Part shown: positions 27,802 to 55,871 of the stretch, one piece after another
Layout: the number at the start of each line of letters is the position of its first letter
Position numbering within the stretch: position 1 is the first letter of the stretch
Assembly: GCF_022808815.1 (NCBI RefSeq)
Contig: NZ_JAKZLC010000001.1
Location: forward strand, 248,001 to 312,000
DNA from: Geothrix paludis
Lineage (GTDB): Bacteria > Acidobacteriota > Holophagae > Holophagales > Holophagaceae
Direction of reading: 5' to 3'
Length of the DNA stretch: 64,000 bases
The notes under the pieces: model-generated
Seen by the model: only the letters and a program-made list of their open reading frames with translations
Told to the model about the DNA's origin: nothing
Database searches by the model: none
Made by a program: the position numbers and the translations under genes

Positions 27802-28251
27802 ATGCTCAACCGTCTGCAGGCCGATCTTAAAACCGCCATGCTGGCCAGGGATGCCGCCCGGACCCAGGTACTCCGCATGGCGCTCGCCGCCTACAAGAAC
27901 GAGGCGGTGGCCAAGGGGCTGGGCCCGCAGGGGACGCTGGCGGAGGCCGACGCCCTGGCCGTCCTCAAGCGGCTGGTGAAGTCCCGGGAGGACAGCATCG
28001 CCCAGTTCGAGAAGGTGGGCCAGGCGGAGCGGGCCGCCCAGGAGCGGGCGGAGATCGAGCTGCTGAATCCCTACCTGCCCGCCATGCTGGAGGGTCCGGC
28101 CCTAGAGGCGGCGGTGAAGGCCGCCATCGCCGAGACGGGGGCCGCCACGAAGAAGGACATGGGCCTGGTCATGAAGGCCATGCAGGCCGCCCACGGCGGC
28201 GCCTTCGACGGCAAGGCCGCCAGCGCCCTGGTGCAGAGCCTTTTGAATTGA
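27802..28251 (+). CDS. yqeY: GatB/YqeY domain protein
   Basis: 149 aa, standard YqeY length. LQADLKTAMLARDAARTQVL (about 5-24), LVKSREDSIAQFEKVGQAE, ELLNPYLPAML and KKDMGLVMKAMQAAHGGAFD fit the family, which shares the tRNA-binding tail domain of GatB. Function not settled. Its TGA is the first three bases of repeat element B. Confidence 0.92.
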   Translation: MLNRLQADLKTAMLARDAARTQVLRMALAAYKNEAVAKGLGPQGTLAEADALAVLKRLVKSREDSIAQFEKVGQAERAAQERAEIELLNPYLPAMLEGPALEAAVKAAIAETGAATKKDMGLVMKAMQAAHGGAFDGKAASALVQSLLN

Positions 28252-28395
28252 AACCGCGAAACACGCGAAAAGGCGCGAAAGAATGCCGGGCTCTTGGCCC
28301 GGGCTTCCATCTCTGACCTCCGGAGGCGATCCGATTCCTTCTCGCTCAGGTGCTTCCGCGTAGGCCCGCAGGGCCTTTCGCGCCTTTCGAGGTTC
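28249..28395. repeat. Inverted-repeat element B starting at the yqeY stop codon
   Basis: TGAAACCGCGAAA (28249-28261) opens the element and includes the yqeY stop. AAAGGCGCGAAAG (28269-28281) pairs perfectly with 28375-28387, and flanking bases extend the match imperfectly to about 28395. Element D at 44.6 kb begins with the same 13 bases, also at a stop codon. Confidence 0.78.
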
Positions 28396-28455: not shown

Positions 28456-30297
28456 ATGAAGCAGTCGAAGCTCCTGATCCAGACCCTGCGCGAGACGCCG
28501 CGCGATGCCGACGTCGTGAGCCAGCAGCTCATGATGCGGGCCGGCATGATCCAGAAAGTGGCCGCCGGCATCTACAGCTACCTGCCGCTGGCCTTCCGGA
28601 GCATTCGCAAGTTCGAGGAGATCGTCCGCGAAGAGCTGGCCAAGGACGGCTGCCAGGAGCTGCTCATGCCTGCGGTGCTGCCCGCGGAGCTATGGCAGGA
28701 GAGCGGTCGCTGGAAGTTCTACGGCGACGAGCTCCTGCGCTTCTGCGACCGCAAGGCCAAGGCCGAGATGGCCGAGCGCCGAGCCCGGGGCGAGAAGCCC
28801 GACGAGCGCGAGTTCTACAACTTCTGCCTCGGCCCGACGCACGAAGAGGTGATCACCGACATCGTCCGGAAGAATGTGCGCAGCTACAAGCAGCTGCCCA
28901 TGAACCTCTTCCAGATCCAGACCAAGTTCCGCGACGAGCGCCGACCCCGCTTCGGCCTGATGCGGGGCCGCGAGTTCACCATGAAGGACGGCTACTCCTT
29001 CCACGTGGACGATGCCTGCGCCGACCGCGAGTACTGGGCCATGTTCAATGCCTACAAGCGGATCTTCGGCCGCCTGGGTGTGAAGTTCCGCCCGGTGGAG
29101 GCCGACAGCGGCGCCATCGGCGGCAGCTTCACCCACGAATTCCATGTGCTGGCGGGCAGTGGCGAGGATGCCATCCTCAGCTGCGACGCCTGCGACTACA
29201 CCTCCAATATCGAGAAGACGGAGGCTCCGGCGCTGTCTGTCGGCGATCACGGGAAGGCCTCCGAGCTGAAGAAGGACCACTTCCGCACGCCGGGCGTGGT
29301 GGGGCAGGTGGAGCAGGCGGCGGGGATGATCGATGCGGACCATCCGGACGGCATGCCCATCACCCAGACCAGCAAGTTCTTCCTCTACCGGGCCACCTTC
29401 GCGGACGGAACCACGAAGCTGGTGGGCGCGGTGCTGCGGGGTGACCACGAGGTCAATCCCGTCAAGGTGAAGAACGCCATCGGGGCAGCCGAGATGGAGA
29501 TGATGCCCCTGGAGGAGGCCGAGGCCTTCACCGGCGCCAAGAGCGGCTTTATGGGGCCGGTGGGCCTGAAGGATGTCCAGTTCCTGATCGACCGCAGCCT
29601 GGAAGGCGCGGTGAACCTTACCTGCGGCGCGAACCACACGGACTACCACCACTTCGGGCTGGACCCCGTGCGCGACCTGCCGGGCTGCACCTACACGGAC
29701 CTGCGCATGGCCGCCGAGGGCGACACCTGCACCCGCTGCGGGAAGGGGACGTACCAGGCCTTCCGCGGCATCGAGGTGGGCCAGGTCTTCAAGCTGGGGC
29801 TGAAGTATTCCAAGAGCATGGGCTGCACCTTCCTGGACGAGCAGGGCAAGGAGAACCCCATGGTGATGGGCTGCTACGGCATCGGCATCACCCGCACGGT
29901 GGCCGCCGCCGTCGAGCAGAACTACGACGCCGACGGCATCATCTGGCCCTGGCCCATCGCGCCCTACCAGGTGCACATCGTGTGCCTGGACCCGGCCAAT
30001 CCCGAGGTGTCCGGCGTGGCCTCCCAGGTCGAGCAGGATCTGGAGAAGGCCGGCTTCGAGGTGCTGCACGACGATCGCGAAGGCATGAGCCCCGGCGCCA
30101 AGTTCAAGGACGCGGACCTGCTGGGCTTCCCCCTGCGCCTTACAGTGGGCGCCAAGGGCCTGAAGGACGGCATCGTGGAGCTCCGCGACCGCCGGACCAA
30201 GGAAGTCGTCAAGCTCAAGCCCGAGGCCGCTACCGCGGAGGTGGCCGCCGCCCGCGACCGCATCATGCAGGAACTGGAAACCGCAGGGGGCCGCTGA
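28456..30297 (+). CDS. proS: Prolyl-tRNA synthetase (bacterial type, with editing domain)
   Basis: 613 aa class II synthetase. Motif 1 region GAGMIQKVAAGIYSYLPL variant (AGMIQKVAAGIYSYLPLAFR), motif 2 TKFRDERRPRFGLMRGREF, motif 3 GCYGIGITRTVAAAVEQN. A YbaK-like editing insert (about 255-390) removes Ala-tRNA(Pro): TSKFFLYRATFADGTTKLVG and LRGDHEVNPVKVKNAIGA. The C-terminal anticodon-binding domain includes VLHDDREGMSPGAKFKDADL. The frame is open upstream, but ATG 28456 begins the homology. It overlaps the next gene by one base. Confidence 0.96.
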   Translation: MKQSKLLIQTLRETPRDADVVSQQLMMRAGMIQKVAAGIYSYLPLAFRSIRKFEEIVREELAKDGCQELLMPAVLPAELWQESGRWKFYGDELLRFCDRKAKAEMAERRARGEKPDEREFYNFCLGPTHEEVITDIVRKNVRSYKQLPMNLFQIQTKFRDERRPRFGLMRGREFTMKDGYSFHVDDACADREYWAMFNAYKRIFGRLGVKFRPVEADSGAIGGSFTHEFHVLAGSGEDAILSCDACDYTSNIEKTEAPALSVGDHGKASELKKDHFRTPGVVGQVEQAAGMIDADHPDGMPITQTSKFFLYRATFADGTTKLVGAVLRGDHEVNPVKVKNAIGAAEMEMMPLEEAEAFTGAKSGFMGPVGLKDVQFLIDRSLEGAVNLTCGANHTDYHHFGLDPVRDLPGCTYTDLRMAAEGDTCTRCGKGTYQAFRGIEVGQVFKLGLKYSKSMGCTFLDEQGKENPMVMGCYGIGITRTVAAAVEQNYDADGIIWPWPIAPYQVHIVCLDPANPEVSGVASQVEQDLEKAGFEVLHDDREGMSPGAKFKDADLLGFPLRLTVGAKGLKDGIVELRDRRTKEVVKLKPEAATAEVAAARDRIMQELETAGGR

Positions 30298-30794: not shown

Positions 30795-30826
30795 CGAAAA
30801 TCGGCGCCGTTCGGCGCCGATTTTCG
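30795..30826. terminator. Bidirectional terminator between proS unit and ndk
   Basis: CGAAAATCGGCGCCG (30795-30809) pairs perfectly with 30812-30826 around a TT centre. A- and T-rich outer parts serve both converging transcripts. Confidence 0.88.
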
Positions 30827-30846
30827 TTGGGGCTTCGCCCTGGGGA

Positions 30847-42687: not shown

Positions 42688-42717
42688 AAAACCCCGGAGA
42701 TCGCCTCCGGGGTTTTT
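42688..42717. terminator. Terminator after the Cys-rich peptide gene
   Basis: AAAACCCCGGAG (42688-42699), 5-nt loop, CTCCGGGGTTTT (42705-42716) then T. Confidence 0.9.
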
Positions 42718-42751
42718 GCGTTCCGGCCCGGTTCGTGATTGTCTGGATGGG

Positions 42752-44593
42752 ATGAAGATCCGCACCCTGCTCCCTGGCGCCATCCTGTTGGCTTTGACGG
42801 CCGGTACCGTGGCCGGCTGGATGTGGACCCGGGACGTGCCGCAACCCCAGGGCCAGGAGGCGCCGGTCCAGCCGCAGAAGCGGGGCCGTCGAGGCGCGCC
42901 CGTGCAACAGCGCCTGGTGGACCAGTCGCCGCTGCTCACCGCCCGGAGCCTGGTGCCCCTGGCCTCGACCTTCGAGGAAAAGCAGTTGGCCGTCCAGGCC
43001 GAGCGCCTGGGCAACCACTCGGTGGACCTCGCCTTCTCATATGCGCTCCGGACGGCGGCCACCGCTTCCGTGCCGAACACCCCGGAGATCAAGGAACTAT
43101 CGGAAGCCAAGGCCAGGGCCCAGACGGCTGTGGAGGCCGGGGAGCAGCAACTGGCCCGCCTGGGCCGGATGCTCGCCGCAGCCCCGGAGTCCAAGAAGGA
43201 TGCGCTGGAAGACCAGATCGACCTCACCAAGGCCCAGCTGGAGCTGGACAAGGATGAGCTCGAGACGGCCTCGAACGACCTGGCACAGGCCGGCGGGGAT
43301 CCCCAGGCCAAGATTCGGCGGCTAAAGGAGGCCCACGAGGCCGCCGACCGGGAGTCCTCCCAGATCATGGCGGCGGCCAAGCCTCCCAGCGCCTTCCAGT
43401 CCGGCAGCCTGGTCGGACGGGTGCTGGAATGGCGCACCCAGCGGGACAAGTGCGCCCGGCTGGAGAAGGCCCGTGCGGAGGCCCAGGTCAAGGAGCAGGC
43501 CATGGCCAAGCGCCGGGCCGAAGTTGAGGCCCAGGCGAAGAAGGAGCAGGAGGACCGCGAGGCGGCCCGCAGTGCGGCCTCGACCCTCATGAAGGGCGCC
43601 TCGAGCCACGGACTGGGCCGGGAGGAAGCCAAGGCCGCCGTGTCCTCCCTGAAGCAGTTCGGGGACGTGCAGCGCAGGTTGGCCACCATGGCCAAGCGGA
43701 TCCAGGATCAGCAAGGCCTGGCGGATACCTACGGAACGTGGCTGGGGCTGGCCGATGGCTACCGCAATGTCGCCCTGCACAAGCTGCTGTCCCAGGGCCT
43801 GGCCATCCTCGGTGTGGTGGTCGCCGCCTACCTGCTCGGCCTGCTCATCGACTGGCTGCATCGGCGTCCCGCGGCTGCGGAACGAGCCTCCGTGGGCGCC
43901 TCGAAGTCCGTGCTGAAGGTGATCATCCGAGTGGTGGCCGTGCTCACCATCGGGTTCATGGTCGTGGGCATGCCGGCCCAGGCCACCACGGTCTTCGGCC
44001 TCGCCGGCGCCGGCCTCACCGTGGCCCTCAAGGACTTCATCGTGGCCTTCTTCGGCTGGTTCATCCTCATGGGGAAGAACGGGATCCGTGTGGGCGACTG
44101 GGTGGAGATCCGCGGCGTGGGCGGCGAGGTGGTCGAGATCGGCATGCTCCGCACGGTGATCCTGGAGACCGGCAGCTGGAGCGACGCGGGCCATCCCACG
44201 GGCCGCCGGGTGGCCTTCGTGAACAACTTCGCCATCGAGGGGCACTTCTTCAATTTCTCCACCTCGGGCAAGTGGATGTGGGACGAGCTCAACATCGTCG
44301 TTCCGGCGGGACAGGATCCCTACCTGGTCATCGATGGCGTGCAGAAGCTGGTGGAGCAGCAGACTTCAGCCAACGCCAAGATCGCCGAGGCGGAATGGCA
44401 GCAGACCGCCTCCAAATACCGCGTGAAGGCCTTCTCGGCCGTGCCCGGCGTCCAGGTGGTGCCCGGCCCCAACGGCATGGAAGTCCGGGCCCGCTACCTC
44501 ACCCGCGCCTTCGAGCGCCACGAGACGCGGCTCCGGCTGAACCAGGCCGTGGTCGAGCTGATGCACGGCCCGCGGGCGGGCGCTTCGGCCTGA
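42752..44593 (+). CDS. MscS-family mechanosensitive channel with long periplasmic coiled coil
   Basis: 613 aa. N-terminal signal/anchor (about 6-24), a long charged helical region (about 75-320, KELSEAKARAQTAVEAGEQQ and AEAQVKEQAMAKRRAEVEAQ), then membrane spans (about 350-445) and the MscS core TTVFGLAGAGLTVALKDFIV, GIRVGDWVEIRGVGGEVVEI, RRVAFVNNFAIEGHFFNFS, and a cytoplasmic beta/alpha vestibule. Larger than E. coli MscS, like MscK-type relatives. Opens under membrane tension. Its stop is the first three bases of element D. Confidence 0.87.
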   Translation: MKIRTLLPGAILLALTAGTVAGWMWTRDVPQPQGQEAPVQPQKRGRRGAPVQQRLVDQSPLLTARSLVPLASTFEEKQLAVQAERLGNHSVDLAFSYALRTAATASVPNTPEIKELSEAKARAQTAVEAGEQQLARLGRMLAAAPESKKDALEDQIDLTKAQLELDKDELETASNDLAQAGGDPQAKIRRLKEAHEAADRESSQIMAAAKPPSAFQSGSLVGRVLEWRTQRDKCARLEKARAEAQVKEQAMAKRRAEVEAQAKKEQEDREAARSAASTLMKGASSHGLGREEAKAAVSSLKQFGDVQRRLATMAKRIQDQQGLADTYGTWLGLADGYRNVALHKLLSQGLAILGVVVAAYLLGLLIDWLHRRPAAAERASVGASKSVLKVIIRVVAVLTIGFMVVGMPAQATTVFGLAGAGLTVALKDFIVAFFGWFILMGKNGIRVGDWVEIRGVGGEVVEIGMLRTVILETGSWSDAGHPTGRRVAFVNNFAIEGHFFNFSTSGKWMWDELNIVVPAGQDPYLVIDGVQKLVEQQTSANAKIAEAEWQQTASKYRVKAFSAVPGVQVVPGPNGMEVRARYLTRAFERHETRLRLNQAVVELMHGPRAGASA

Positions 44594-44729
44594 AACCGCG
44601 AAAAGCGCGAAAGGCCGTGAAAAGGGCTCGGGCGCCCAGAGCCCCAACCGTGAGGCAAACGACAGCAGTGGAAAAGTTGCCCTTTCTCTTTTCGCGCGCC
44701 TGAAGGGCGATTCGCGCGATTTCGCGGTT
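44591..44729. repeat. Inverted-repeat element D starting at the mscS-like stop codon
   Basis: Occupies half of the 287-bp gap before the ABC-F gene. AACCGCGAAAAGCGCGAA (44594-44611) pairs with 44711-44729 with one bulge and one mismatch. It begins TGAAACCGCGAAA, as element B does. The remaining 44730-44880 shows no clear gene or motif apart from the ABC-F upstream region. Confidence 0.82.
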
Positions 44730-44880: not shown

Positions 44881-46512
44881 ATGATCTCGTTCTCCAGCGT
44901 CAGCAAGCAGTACGGCAAGCAGGTCCTGTTCATCGAGGCGGATTTCCAGCTGAACCCCGGCGAGAAGGTGGGCCTGGTGGGGCCGAACGGGGCGGGCAAG
45001 TCCACGCTCTTCCGCATGATCATGGGCGAGGAGGCGCCGGACGACGGCACGGTGACGCTCCCCAAGAAGCTCACCCTGGGCTACTTCCGCCAGGAGGTGG
45101 ACGAAATGGCGGGCCGCCCCGTGCTGGACGAGGCCATCGCTGGCAGCGGGCGGTTGGGCGACCTGCACCACGAGCTCATGGATCTCGAACACGCCATGTC
45201 CGATCCGGAAAAGGCGGATGAGCTGGAGGCCATTCTGGAGCGCTTCGGCCATGTCCAGGAGGAGTACCAGCACCTGGGCGGCTACGAGCTGGAAGCCCGG
45301 GCCCGGGCCTGCCTGCACGGCCTGGGCTTCGAGGACGCGCAGATCGACGGCGACGTGGGCGCGCTCTCCGGCGGTTGGAAGATGCGTGTGTCCATGGCCA
45401 AGGTACTGCTGGGGAACTTCGATGTCCTGCTCATGGACGAGCCCACCAACCACCTGGACATCGAATCCATCCTCTGGCTGGAGGATTTCCTCAAGTCCGT
45501 GCCGGCCACGCTCCTGATGACCAGCCACGACCGCGACTTCATGAACCGGGTGGTCACCAAGGTGCTGGAGATCGACGGCGGCGACATCGTCACCTACTCG
45601 GGCAACTACGATTTCTACGCGAAGGAGCGGGAAGCCCGCGAGGCCAATCAGGAGGCCGCCTACGCCCGACAGCAGGCCAAGCTGGCCAAGGAGCAGCGCT
45701 TCATCGAGCGGTTCAGCGCCCATGCCGCCAAGGCGGCCCAGGTGCAGAGCCGCATCAAGGCCCTAGACAAGATCGAGCGCGTGGAGCCGCCCAAGCGGCG
45801 CCGCATCGTGAAGTGGGACTTCCGCATTCCCGGCCGCTCTGGCGACGACGTGGCCATGCTGGAGGGCGTCTGCAAGGCCTACGGCCCGAAGAAGCTCTAC
45901 AACCAGTTCGCCCTCCACATCCGCCGCGGCGAGCGCTGGTGCGTCATGGGCCGGAACGGTGCCGGCAAGTCCACCTTGCTGAAGATGGTGGCGGGGGCCC
46001 TCCAGCCGGATGCGGGCGCCGTGAAGCTGGGGGCCAGTCTCAGCCTGGGCTACTTCTCCCAGCAGGCCCTGGACCTGCTGGATCCCGAGCTCACCGTGCT
46101 CGAGCAGATGCAGAAGGACTTCCCCATGGAGGGCCTGGGCGTGTTGCGCAACCTGCTGGGCGCCTTCCAGTTCTCCGGCGACGACGTGGACAAGAAGGTC
46201 CGCGCGCTCTCCGGCGGCGAGAAGTCCCGCCTGGTCATGGCCCGCATGCTCTTCAACCCGCCCAACTTCCTGGTGCTGGACGAGCCCACCAACCACCTGG
46301 ACCTGGCCACCAAGGAGATGCTCGTCGAGGCCCTGAAGGACTTCGAGGGCACCATGCTCTTCGTGTCCCACGACCGCACCTTCCTGCGCGGGCTCGCCAA
46401 CCGCGTGCTGGAGCTGGCGGGCGAGGAGCACGAGGGCCCCATGCTCTTCCCGGGCACCTACGCCGAGTACGTGGAGCGCACCGGCCGCGAGGCGCCGGGC
46501 GTGCACAACTGA
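44881..46512 (+). CDS. ABC-F family ATPase (YbiT/Uup-like translation factor)
   Basis: 543 aa, two ABC domains in one chain and no membrane part. First Walker A GLVGPNGAGKSTLFRM (about 32-47), signature ALSGGWKMRVSMAKVLL, Walker B LLMDEPTNHLDIES; interdomain linker rich in Arg/Lys/Ala (about 245-320); second Walker A CVMGRNGAGKSTLLKM, signature ALSGGEKSRLVMARML and LVLDEPTNHLDLAT. ABC-F proteins act at the ribosomal E site. The subtype looks nearest YbiT, by eye only. Confidence 0.9.
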   Translation: MISFSSVSKQYGKQVLFIEADFQLNPGEKVGLVGPNGAGKSTLFRMIMGEEAPDDGTVTLPKKLTLGYFRQEVDEMAGRPVLDEAIAGSGRLGDLHHELMDLEHAMSDPEKADELEAILERFGHVQEEYQHLGGYELEARARACLHGLGFEDAQIDGDVGALSGGWKMRVSMAKVLLGNFDVLLMDEPTNHLDIESILWLEDFLKSVPATLLMTSHDRDFMNRVVTKVLEIDGGDIVTYSGNYDFYAKEREAREANQEAAYARQQAKLAKEQRFIERFSAHAAKAAQVQSRIKALDKIERVEPPKRRRIVKWDFRIPGRSGDDVAMLEGVCKAYGPKKLYNQFALHIRRGERWCVMGRNGAGKSTLLKMVAGALQPDAGAVKLGASLSLGYFSQQALDLLDPELTVLEQMQKDFPMEGLGVLRNLLGAFQFSGDDVDKKVRALSGGEKSRLVMARMLFNPPNFLVLDEPTNHLDLATKEMLVEALKDFEGTMLFVSHDRTFLRGLANRVLELAGEEHEGPMLFPGTYAEYVERTGREAPGVHN

Positions 46513-46555: not shown

Positions 46556-46663
46556 TCTGAAAGCGGAGGAGAGCTGAAATGCGGAGGAGAACGGAGGGAC
46601 TGCGGTTCACTTCCCTTCTTTTTTCCGCTTTCCTCAGCTCCTCCGTTCTCCTCCGCTTCCAGA
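46556..46663. repeat. Inverted-repeat element E between ABC-F and the RluA-like gene
   Basis: GCGGAGGAGAACGGAGG (46581-46597) is perfectly complementary to 46640-46656, and TCTGAAAGCGGAGGAGA (46556-46572) matches 46647-46663 with one mismatch, so two overlapping pairings are possible. The right arm includes the last codons of the leftward gene. Confidence 0.82.
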
Positions 46664-53974: not shown

Positions 53975-55657
53975 ATGATCGAGCAGACCCTCTTCTTCTT
54001 CGCGCACAACCCGCTCCTGATGCTGTTCGCGGTGGTGGCGCTGGGCTACCCCATCAGCAAGCTCCGGATCGCCGGCGCCTCCTTCGGCATCGCCAGCATC
54101 CTCTTCGCGGGCATCGCGCTGGGCGCGCTCGTGATGGCGCCGGGCCTGGATCCGGGCCTCAAGAAGGACATCTCCCGGGAGATGAAGCTGGTCTACGAGC
54201 TGGGGCTGGCCGTCTTCGTCTACGCCATGGGACTCTCCATCTCCCACAGTTTCTGGGCCGCCTTCAGCCGCGAGGGCATGAAGAAGAACGCCGTGGTCGT
54301 CCTGGTGATGGTGGCCTCCATGGCCTTCGTGGTGCTGCTGGCCCGCCTGATGGGCTTCAACGCCCGCTACGCGGCGGGCCTGCTCACGGGCAGCTTCACG
54401 AACATGCCGGCCCTGGCGGGCGTCATCGAGCGTGTGAAGTCCATGGGCGCGGGGCCCCTGGAGCTGGCCCAGCCCACGGTGGCCTCGGCCATCGCGTACC
54501 CCATCGGCGTGCTGGTGCCCATGCTGGTCATCCTCGTGAGCCCGAGGCTCTTCGGGGTGAACCTGCGGGAGGAGGCGGACGGCCTCAAGGACTACCAGAC
54601 GGGCCACCACAAGCTGGAGGTCTGGACCCTGAGGGTGACGCGGCCCGAGGCGGAGTCCCTGACGAAGCGGGAGATCCGTGCCGCCGGCCGCTTCCAGGTG
54701 GTTTTCGGGCGAGTGCTGCGCAACGCGGAGCTGCTCCTGCCGGGGCCGGACTTCCGGCTGAAGCTGGACGACCTCGTGACCGTGGTGGGTTCACCGGACG
54801 ATCTCGTCCAGGTGGCGTTGCTCATCGGCGAGCGCAGCCATGTGGAACTGGACCGGGACCAGAGCGCGCTGGATGCCACCCGCGTCTTCGTCTCCAACTG
54901 GGAGGTGGTGGGCGTGCCCCTCGGCAAGCTGGATCTGGTGAACAAGCGCCAGGCCATCATCACCCGCGTGCGGCGCGGGGATCTCTGGTTCGTGCCGGCC
55001 GGCGACACGGTGCTGGAGCTGGGCGACCGGGTGCGCGTCACCACGCGCCGGGACAACATCGAGGCCATCGAAACTTTCTTCGGAGACAGCTATCGCGCCC
55101 TCAGCGAGGTGAGCTTCCTCACCTTCGCCATGGGCCTGGCGGCGGGCCTGGCCCTGGGCCAGCTTCCCATCCCCCTGGGCCACGGCATCGTCTTCAAGCT
55201 GGGCTTCGCGGGCGGGCCCCTGGCCGTGGCGCTGGTCCTCGGCCGCTTCCACCGCATCGGGCCCCTGGTCTGGAACTTCCCCTACAGCGCCAACCACACC
55301 ATCCGCCAGTTCGGGCTGGTGCTGTTCGCGGCGGGCATCGGCGTGATCTCCGGCGAGGGCTTCCGGGCCATCGTGGCCGGCAACGCCGGCGTGCTGCCTC
55401 TCTTCCTGGGCGCCGCCTTCCTGGTCTGCCTGATGGCCGATTCGCTCACCATGCTGATCGGGCACAAGGGCTTCGGCATCCCCCTCAATGTGATGTTCGG
55501 CATCGTGGCGGGCACGCACACCCAGCCCGTGGTGCTGGGCTACGCGAACCACCAGACGGGCAACGAGATGCCCAACGTGGGCTTCGCCACGGTCTACCCG
55601 CTGGCCACCATCCTCAAGATCGTCCTGGCCCAGGTGCTGTTGGCGCTCATCCGCTGA
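53975..55657 (+). CDS. AspT/YidE/YbjL-type antiporter
   Basis: 560 aa. Two five- to six-span membrane halves (about 5-175 and 370-555) flank a cytoplasmic double TrkA-C domain (about 205-365, LLPGPDFRLKLDDLVTVVGS and DTVLELGDRVRVTT). Each half ends with the AspT-Asp-Al-Ex-like motif: LLTGSFTNMPALAGVIERVK and GIVAGTHTQPVVLGYANHQT. Family members exchange dicarboxylates or amino acids. ATG 53975 is preferred over GTG 53954, which has no ribosome site. Confidence 0.88.
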   Translation: MIEQTLFFFAHNPLLMLFAVVALGYPISKLRIAGASFGIASILFAGIALGALVMAPGLDPGLKKDISREMKLVYELGLAVFVYAMGLSISHSFWAAFSREGMKKNAVVVLVMVASMAFVVLLARLMGFNARYAAGLLTGSFTNMPALAGVIERVKSMGAGPLELAQPTVASAIAYPIGVLVPMLVILVSPRLFGVNLREEADGLKDYQTGHHKLEVWTLRVTRPEAESLTKREIRAAGRFQVVFGRVLRNAELLLPGPDFRLKLDDLVTVVGSPDDLVQVALLIGERSHVELDRDQSALDATRVFVSNWEVVGVPLGKLDLVNKRQAIITRVRRGDLWFVPAGDTVLELGDRVRVTTRRDNIEAIETFFGDSYRALSEVSFLTFAMGLAAGLALGQLPIPLGHGIVFKLGFAGGPLAVALVLGRFHRIGPLVWNFPYSANHTIRQFGLVLFAAGIGVISGEGFRAIVAGNAGVLPLFLGAAFLVCLMADSLTMLIGHKGFGIPLNVMFGIVAGTHTQPVVLGYANHQTGNEMPNVGFATVYPLATILKIVLAQVLLALIR

Positions 55658-55682: not shown

Positions 55683-55834
55683 AGAACGCAGAGGACGCAG
55701 AAACGCCCTTCGGGCGCGCAGAGGGAGTTCGACCTACCGCGAACAGGACCCTTGCCGCGGGGCCTGGGACCGAAGGCCCGGCTGTCCTGGCCTGGTCGCC
55801 AGCCGGAAAATTATTTCTCTGCGTTCTCTGCGGT
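55683..55834. repeat. Inverted-repeat element F between the antiporter and the NPP gene
   Basis: AGAACGCAGAGGACGCAG followed by AAA (55683-55703) pairs with 55814-55834 with one gap and few mismatches. Tandem purine-rich units (ACGCAGAG, ACGCAGAA) are like those of elements A, B, D and E. Confidence 0.75.
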
Positions 55835-55871
55835 GAATAAACAGTTGGCCGTTCTTGACGGCACCTTGGTA

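Follow-up and report, generated by a model that had tools for sequence, protein, structure and literature searches.

Inverted CGCGAAA-unit elements next to stop codons in Geothrix paludis: probable miniature relatives of elements that carry a GxxExxY nuclease gene

REPs are palindromes of 20–40 nt with GTAG or CGTC tags. Two described systems come closest to the elements reported here. According to PMC3116915, REPINs are inverted pairs of short extragenic repeats that are non-autonomous and have a cognate single-gene partner, the RAYT, whose lineage matches the type of repeat. According to PMC10969869, bacterial MITEs derived from insertion sequences are small, gene-free sequences with inverted ends that are presumably moved in trans. 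The libraries list GxxExxY proteins simply as a protein family, and open-access papers name them in passing; a search of the open-access literature yielded no description of inverted-repeat elements linked to GxxExxY. The two elements described below, B and D, are gene-free inverted repeats that each adjoin a stop codon, and they probably belong, as non-autonomous (miniature) members, to a class of mobile inverted-repeat elements served by GxxExxY nucleases.

Elements B and D and their dispersal

The window is the whole 64,000-nucleotide stretch of Geothrix paludis DNA that was analysed. TGAAACCGCGAAA matches it exactly twice, at 28249 and 44591, in agreement with the original prediction that B and D share 13 bases beginning at the TGA stops of two unrelated genes. 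When up to two mismatches were allowed, three matches were obtained, against 0.56 expected from shuffles. Element B spans 28252–28394, its right arm ending one base short of the predicted 28395, and element D spans 44594–44729; the first base of each follows directly after the TGA stop of the upstream gene. The features concerned are listed here.

27802–28251, + strand: yqeY (Pfam PF09424, 2.9e-39), whose TGA at 28249–28251 adjoins B
28252–28281, + strand: left end of B, AACCGCGAAA plus two more CGCGAAA units
28282–28374, no strand: interior of B, nuclease ORF absent
28375–28394, − strand: right end of B, inverted CGCGAAA units with slight decay (CGAGGTT)
28456–30297, + strand: open frame, the next gene after B, whose product we take from its sequence to be prolyl-tRNA synthetase
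42716–44593, + strand: gene with a mechanosensitive-channel domain (PF00924, 2.2e-7), whose TGA at 44591–44593 adjoins D
44594–44729, no strand: element D, with ends AACCGCGAAA...TTTCGCGGTT, as in B
44881–46512, + strand: ABC-transporter-type ATPase gene, 3′ of D

CGCGAAA units with a spacing of about 9–10 bp make up both ends of B and of D. The 19-nt arms of B (28252–28270 and 28376–28394) are 84% complementary and a second, 13-nt pair (28269–28281 and 28375–28387) is 100% complementary; the outer arms of D (10 nt, 44594–44603 and 44720–44729) are 100% complementary and its other arms 72–83%. Among the BLASTN matches listed, long matches to the interior of B were confined to the same site in relatives (L082, L083/L284).

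Other inverted repeats were also recorded in the window. One of like design and with another unit (GCGGAGGA...TCCTCCGC) lies at 46560–46662, 3′ of the ABC-ATPase gene, and is resembled by the end units of three GxxExxY loci (L400, L403 and L427). Another, made of CGCAGAG units (AACGCAGAGGACGCAG...CTGCGTTCTCTGCGGTGAATAA), lies at 55686–55836, 3′ of an ORF ending at 55657, and resembles the ends of L075, L077 and L394. At 30799–30830 there is a terminator-like palindrome, AAAATCGGCGCCGTTCGGCGCCGATTTT.

Dispersal was followed with sequence patterns of increasing reach. AACCGCGAAA gave 17 matches in the own genome, judged by eye to represent nine elements after exclusion of L004 and L005, matches inside coding sequence that look like chance; in five of the nine, AACC on one side comes directly after TGA. 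AACCGCGAAN2-4CGCGAA was present in 27 of 47 genomes of the genus, with 12 forward and 13 reverse matches in the own genome, 25 and 34 in G060, and between 0 and 59 ends per genome overall. Across the phylum, a strict three-unit pattern occurred in 22 of 297 genomes, belonging to 9 of 167 genera, and a first, tighter pattern (GCGCGAAA N0-3 GCGCGAAA) gave no matches. A chance origin was ruled out: the reversed-pattern control gave 0 matches in the genus genomes, and the 13-mer occurs exactly twice in the window. In some ends (L008, L017, L313–L327) a small inner hairpin (GCCCTGCGGGC) lies between two CGCGAA units.

Within single genomes, a 206-bp core with CGCGAA-type ends is repeated (four copies compared in G000, six in G006), the copies being 83–92% identical; it was found in G008 and G025 too. 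The left flanks of the copies are dissimilar (35–58% in alignment, a figure owed partly to an outer segment of ~30 nt common to the copies). By eye, no target-site duplication was seen at B, at D, at folK or in the 206-bp group, and neither an excision product nor a fresh transposition was seen. The elements match MITEs in having inverted ends, no transposase gene and several dispersed copies.

Stop codons and the same sites in relatives

To describe boundaries, 179 distinct ends were reduced to 107 clusters by grouping ends whose 30-nt flanks were at least 60% identical and keeping one end per cluster. A stop lies at distance 0 at 6 of the 107 CGCGAA-type ends; at a further seven, four at +1 and three at +2, the codon is finished by an A or AA that the element supplies, and 25 more lie at −1 to −9, so that 38 of the 107 fall within 9 nt. 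The 94 of 107 that neither adjoin nor complete a stop are the larger share: exact stop contact is one mode, that of a minority, and not the rule. A looser association is much more common, since 66 of the 107 ends face the 3′ end of a gene, with its stop no more than 60 nt away or reaching at most 2 nt into the element, compared with 21 facing a gene start (p 1.4e-6) and 20 facing neither. The stops at the 66 ends are TGA (40), TAA (17) and TAG (9). The edge of the element sometimes touches a stop because the element tends to settle just 3′ of genes.

Base composition at the boundary is also distinctive. TGA stands directly 5′ of AACC at 18 of 107 ends, against a background of 0.0125 (binomial p 2e-15), and TGG at 15; over the same set, an A-rich stretch runs from −9 to −5, T occupies −3 in 48 ends and G occupies −2 in 66. 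By a heuristic ORF test (at least 70 codons, GC3), 12 of the 18 TGA-flanked ends lie away from a gene's own stop. TGR seems to belong to the end consensus, or to reflect an insertion preference, and can coincide with a stop.

The bias towards gene 3′ ends is what would be expected if the inverted repeats acted as RNA, as 3′-end hairpins, bidirectional terminators or stabilizers of mRNA after stops, with the nuclease gene described below incidental. The A-rich outer flank points the same way, because it makes the other side T-rich, as in bidirectional terminators. However, when folded as single-stranded RNA, B gained nothing over shuffles (z −0.59) and D only slightly (z −1.56), the right flanks of both are devoid of a T run, and neither resembles an intrinsic terminator, in which a T run comes after a stable hairpin. 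The sole Rfam match at the gathering threshold was tRNA. A role as RNA would also leave unexplained both the tandem units and the GxxExxY genes found between such ends at 139 of 170 loci, and we consider it distinctly unlikely, preferring to read B and D as miniature mobile elements.

Comparison of the same sites in relatives yielded the element-free loci that had been proposed as a check, at yqeY–proS, at site D and at folK. For yqeY–proS, 26 of 30 loci could be parsed (four could not). An element follows directly after TGA in five (L079, L080, L082, L083 and L102), lies 12 nt after TAA in L090, and is of another unit and in mid-gap in L101; the other 19 hold none of these, with TGA (14), TAA (2) or TAG (3) as the stop. 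Several of the 19 contain a different palindrome; one that is dispersed, GGGGGGAC.TCGCGAGCGAAGCGAGCAGGCGGTCCCCCC, occurs in either orientation in the yqeY–proS gap of L081, L084, L085, L087, L088, L089 and L091–L093. Site D is filled in the own genome only: eight comparable loci, which share the upstream gene and have a gap after it, are empty (TGA in seven, TAG in one) and a ninth, L208, holds a possible relic of the element. The uninformative loci among the 30 comprise 18 in which the upstream gene lies directly against the ATPase gene and two with another upstream gene. Because element-free relatives keep a stop, the TGA at B and at D belongs to the genes and predates the element.

At folK, 30 loci comprise seven with a CGCGAA-type element, three of CGCAGATG type, two of CACGGAT type, nine that are empty with gaps of 2–9 nt, and nine that were unparsed or have another gene there. 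All 10 CGCGAA- and CGCAGATG-type elements start directly after TGA, and the CACGGAT type begins at TAG. A single gap at this junction (L223–L252) therefore holds three unit types, which come from separate species within one genus and all begin at the stop. The turnover of units reflects either repeated insertion or a change of unit in an old insertion; the two are indistinguishable here because an empty gap of 2–9 nt fixes the position. For purH–alaS, also with 30 loci, a nuclease-bearing element was found in three, a miniature with CACCAAG units in five and neither type in 21. Elements thus persist at the same site across species, and recurrent sites of the nuclease include junctions that we take to be ftsA–ftsZ, rpoB–rpoC, purH–alaS and carA–carB.

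These data bear on the stronger form of the original prediction, namely that the element targets TGA stops or exists to supply stop codons. The excess of TGA before AACC, the seven ends that complete a stop with their own bases, and the folK elements of CGCGAA and CGCAGATG type, all of which start at TGA or complete it, speak for such a link. Against it, a stop is already there in the element-free relatives, most ends neither adjoin nor complete one, two-thirds of the TGA-flanked ends lie away from a gene's own stop, and at folK the narrow empty gap leaves the position nearly forced. The strong form is accordingly very unlikely in our judgement. What holds of the prediction is that the element is dispersed and that its edges are associated with TGA and with the 3′ ends of genes; a rule of insertion into TGA stops does not hold. 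Supply of stops fails at B and D and applies to the seven completing ends. Most copies do lie away from stops when exact contact is meant, yet most face a gene 3′ end within 60 nt.

GxxExxY nuclease genes between inverted ends

In L022 the ends bracket an ORF that matches TIGR04256 (GxxExxY; 131.5 bits, 1.8e-38) and PF13366 (132.7 bits, 1e-38), for which the curated cut-offs are 35 and 22 bits, respectively. A stop-free GxxExxY domain lies between AACCGCG...CGCGGTT ends at seven loci (L022, L023, L074, L262, L357, L388 and L436), the last of which comes from another family of the phylum; at an eighth, L387, the ends have decayed. GxxExxY genes were present in 64 of 100 relatives. A scan of named genomes provided 80 further loci, the best 80 of at least 582 confirmed, which by record title come from Verrucomicrobia, Chloroflexi, Cyanobacteria, Planctomycetes, Proteobacteria, Bacteroidetes, Acidobacteria, Parachlamydiales and others, and, in archaea, from Methanothrix and Methanosarcinales.

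Inverted ends were scored by comparing the 250 bp before each gene with the inverted 250 bp after it, with a threshold of at least 14. With gene edges set by profile, 139 of 170 GxxExxY loci reached the threshold (80 of 95 in relatives, 59 of 75 in named genomes) and 31 did not; in a first run, from which 6 of the 80 named loci were dropped for too short a flank, 53 of 74 named loci had done so. The 170 were reached after removal of duplicates (L109, L112 and L401), with L135, L149, L152, L165 and L174 unscored, and include five with a stop inside the domain (L054, L128, L143, L157 and L181). Controls reached 14 at 0 of 59 loci 900 bp out and at 1 of 94 loci 700 bp out, and at 0 of 55 loci of other genes (0 of 27 for yqeY, 0 of 28 for the ABC-ATPase). 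When the two flanks were taken from different organisms, 117 of 740 such mismatched pairs also reached 14 (first run), because many ends share an outer ACCACAGAG-like unit across phyla; that this unit is so common is a caveat on the raw score and also a finding. Some loci (L110, L412, L414 and L421) owe their passing score to long GC-rich palindromes and not to arrays of units. Of the 119 arms with a length of 26 nt or more, 107 have an internal period of 8–10, with a mean best self-match of 0.57 against 0.43 when shuffled.

The own genome (96.65% complete) holds four GxxExxY genes, all above the TIGR04256 cut-off. CGCGAA ends flank none of the four, whose ends are of other kinds or none that was recognized; B and D are thus without a present partner nuclease, and their partner has to be supposed lost or foreign. 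In G073, a relative of the same family, GxxExxY is far more numerous than elsewhere (40 scored matches from 56 candidates), and the copy examined (L112/L431) has no inverted ends.

The inverted ends of GxxExxY genes are mostly of the same tandem-unit design; the units differ between loci (CGCGAAA, CGCAGATG, ACACGGAG, CACCAAG, ACAGGATT and others), and the type of end follows the lineage of the nuclease. Among 78 relatives with an arm score of at least 16, similarity of ends was correlated with protein identity (Mantel r 0.58, a value that none of 2000 permutations reached; r 0.35 when the pairs taken are those below 70% identity), rising from 0.17 below 45% protein identity to 0.78 above 80%; pairs from the same clade are not independent, and common descent alone may account for the signal.

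Sequence alignments of GxxExxY proteins contain the active-site residues of the PD-(D/E)XK superfamily, with E22, D62, E72-x-K74 and Q86-x3-Y90 invariant in 21 sequences and E25, D65, E75 and K77 in 14. Five AlphaFold2 models were obtained, the best with a mean pLDDT of 94.8 and a pTM of 0.85; by mean pLDDT, two were above 90 and three at 58.7–71.1. Foldseek against the PDB gave no match at E ≤ 0.001, its best being 4ic1 (SSO0001; E 0.012), which we take to be a Cas4, and lambda exonuclease. VIA-align also placed 4ic1 first (Z 9.7, 99 residues, rmsd 3.6), followed at Z 6–7 by many nucleases, including Cas4, Hjc and AddAB, and a sequence search of solved structures returned no match at E ≤ 1. 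The identification of GxxExxY as a PD-(D/E)XK nuclease is well supported, and support ends at that level of assignment.

The bracketed gene also bears on whether a Y1 (HUH) RAYT transposase has spread the repeats as a family of REP/REPIN type. The general appearance is similar, with extragenic, inverted pairs that include non-autonomous copies and a single-gene form. However, the ends bracket a PD-(D/E)XK gene, the units are unlike REPs, and the flanks of the genome's sole Y1 transposase gene contain two isolated matches and no CGCGAA array. A cognate Y1 transposase bracketed by the repeats was not found in the genome, REP/RAYT identity is disfavoured, and we regard this origin as highly improbable.

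A further possibility is that GxxExxY is a nuclease kept by the host, or one for defence, with the inverted ends as binding or regulatory sites and little or no mobility. The nuclease is under strong purifying selection, with a median dN/dS of 0.075 (59 pairs with finite dS of 68; these are simple pairwise counts, in which many dS values are saturated and pairs share branches). With one query, GxxExxY was found in 8 of 72,556 plasmid records and in 0 of 50,697 phage records. Both results are as expected of a host gene, as is the persistence of elements at the same site across species. Host retention does not account for the near-copies of the 206-bp core at unrelated places or for a copy number that runs from none to dozens of ends per genome within one genus, and PADLOC defence models gave no match at E ≤ 0.001 with two proteins. 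We consider it unlikely. The same-site persistence, the scarcity on plasmids and the lack of a phage match are unlike an active transposon, and the plasmid and phage counts speak more for slow inheritance, mostly vertical, than for an aggressive transposon.

Proposed mode of action and comparison with known systems

Based on these results, B and D are best read as gene-free members of a mobile class in which each end comprises 2–4 near-identical units of ~9–10 bp (here CGCGAAA), inverted at the opposite end, and in which the putative autonomous form has one gene, for a GxxExxY nuclease of ~120–130 amino acids, inside such ends. This reading draws on the ends and their dispersal, the GxxExxY genes bracketed by them, the match of end type to nuclease lineage, the purifying selection on the nuclease and the element-free sites. 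The nuclease would recognize the end units as DNA and, together with host repair, would copy or move any segment between two matching ends, so that B and D would have been mobilized in trans. Insertions would survive where genes and promoters are spared, chiefly just after stops, and an end consensus that is A-rich, then TGR, then AACC would now and then bring the edge into coincidence with TGA.

It is about an even call whether GxxExxY nucleases define an undescribed and very widespread class of minimal mobile elements, found in bacteria and archaea, with a ~120-amino acid protein, inverted arrays of ~10-bp units, co-diversifying enzyme and unit, gene-free derivatives after stops, and no DDE, HUH, serine or tyrosine recombinase. 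Such a class would bring many intergenic inverted repeats under a single explanation, and the end units that flank GxxExxY genes give this common and unexplained family a definite setting and a substrate that can be tested. If the nuclease mobilizes these units, a route of transposition would exist that relies on a lone PD-(D/E)XK enzyme of ~120 amino acids, and the naturally matched pairs of enzyme and unit would be a resource for studying how nucleases choose DNA.

Like REPINs and their RAYTs, the elements are dispersed, inverted extragenic pairs with a single-gene partner matched to the type of repeat; unlike them, the partner is a PD-(D/E)XK nuclease rather than an HUH/Y1 enzyme, and the ends are tandem units of ~9–10 bp. 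B and D share with MITEs their small size, inverted ends and freedom from genes, whereas such ends were not found around any insertion-sequence transposase and the parent form, which exists with the same ends, carries GxxExxY, a nuclease that we infer to act in transposition. The gene inside full elements belongs to the GxxExxY family (TIGR04256/PF13366 PDDEXK_3). Its predicted fold, with 4ic1 as the best VIA-align match, resembles Cas4 and lambda-exonuclease-like PD-(D/E)XK nucleases, but GxxExxY proteins are ~120 amino acids long and are without a helicase or Cas partner. Homing endonuclease genes are similar in that a tiny, selfish-looking nuclease gene occupies the same conserved junctions; the elements described here differ from them in being intergenic, in having inverted ends and in giving rise to gene-free derivatives.
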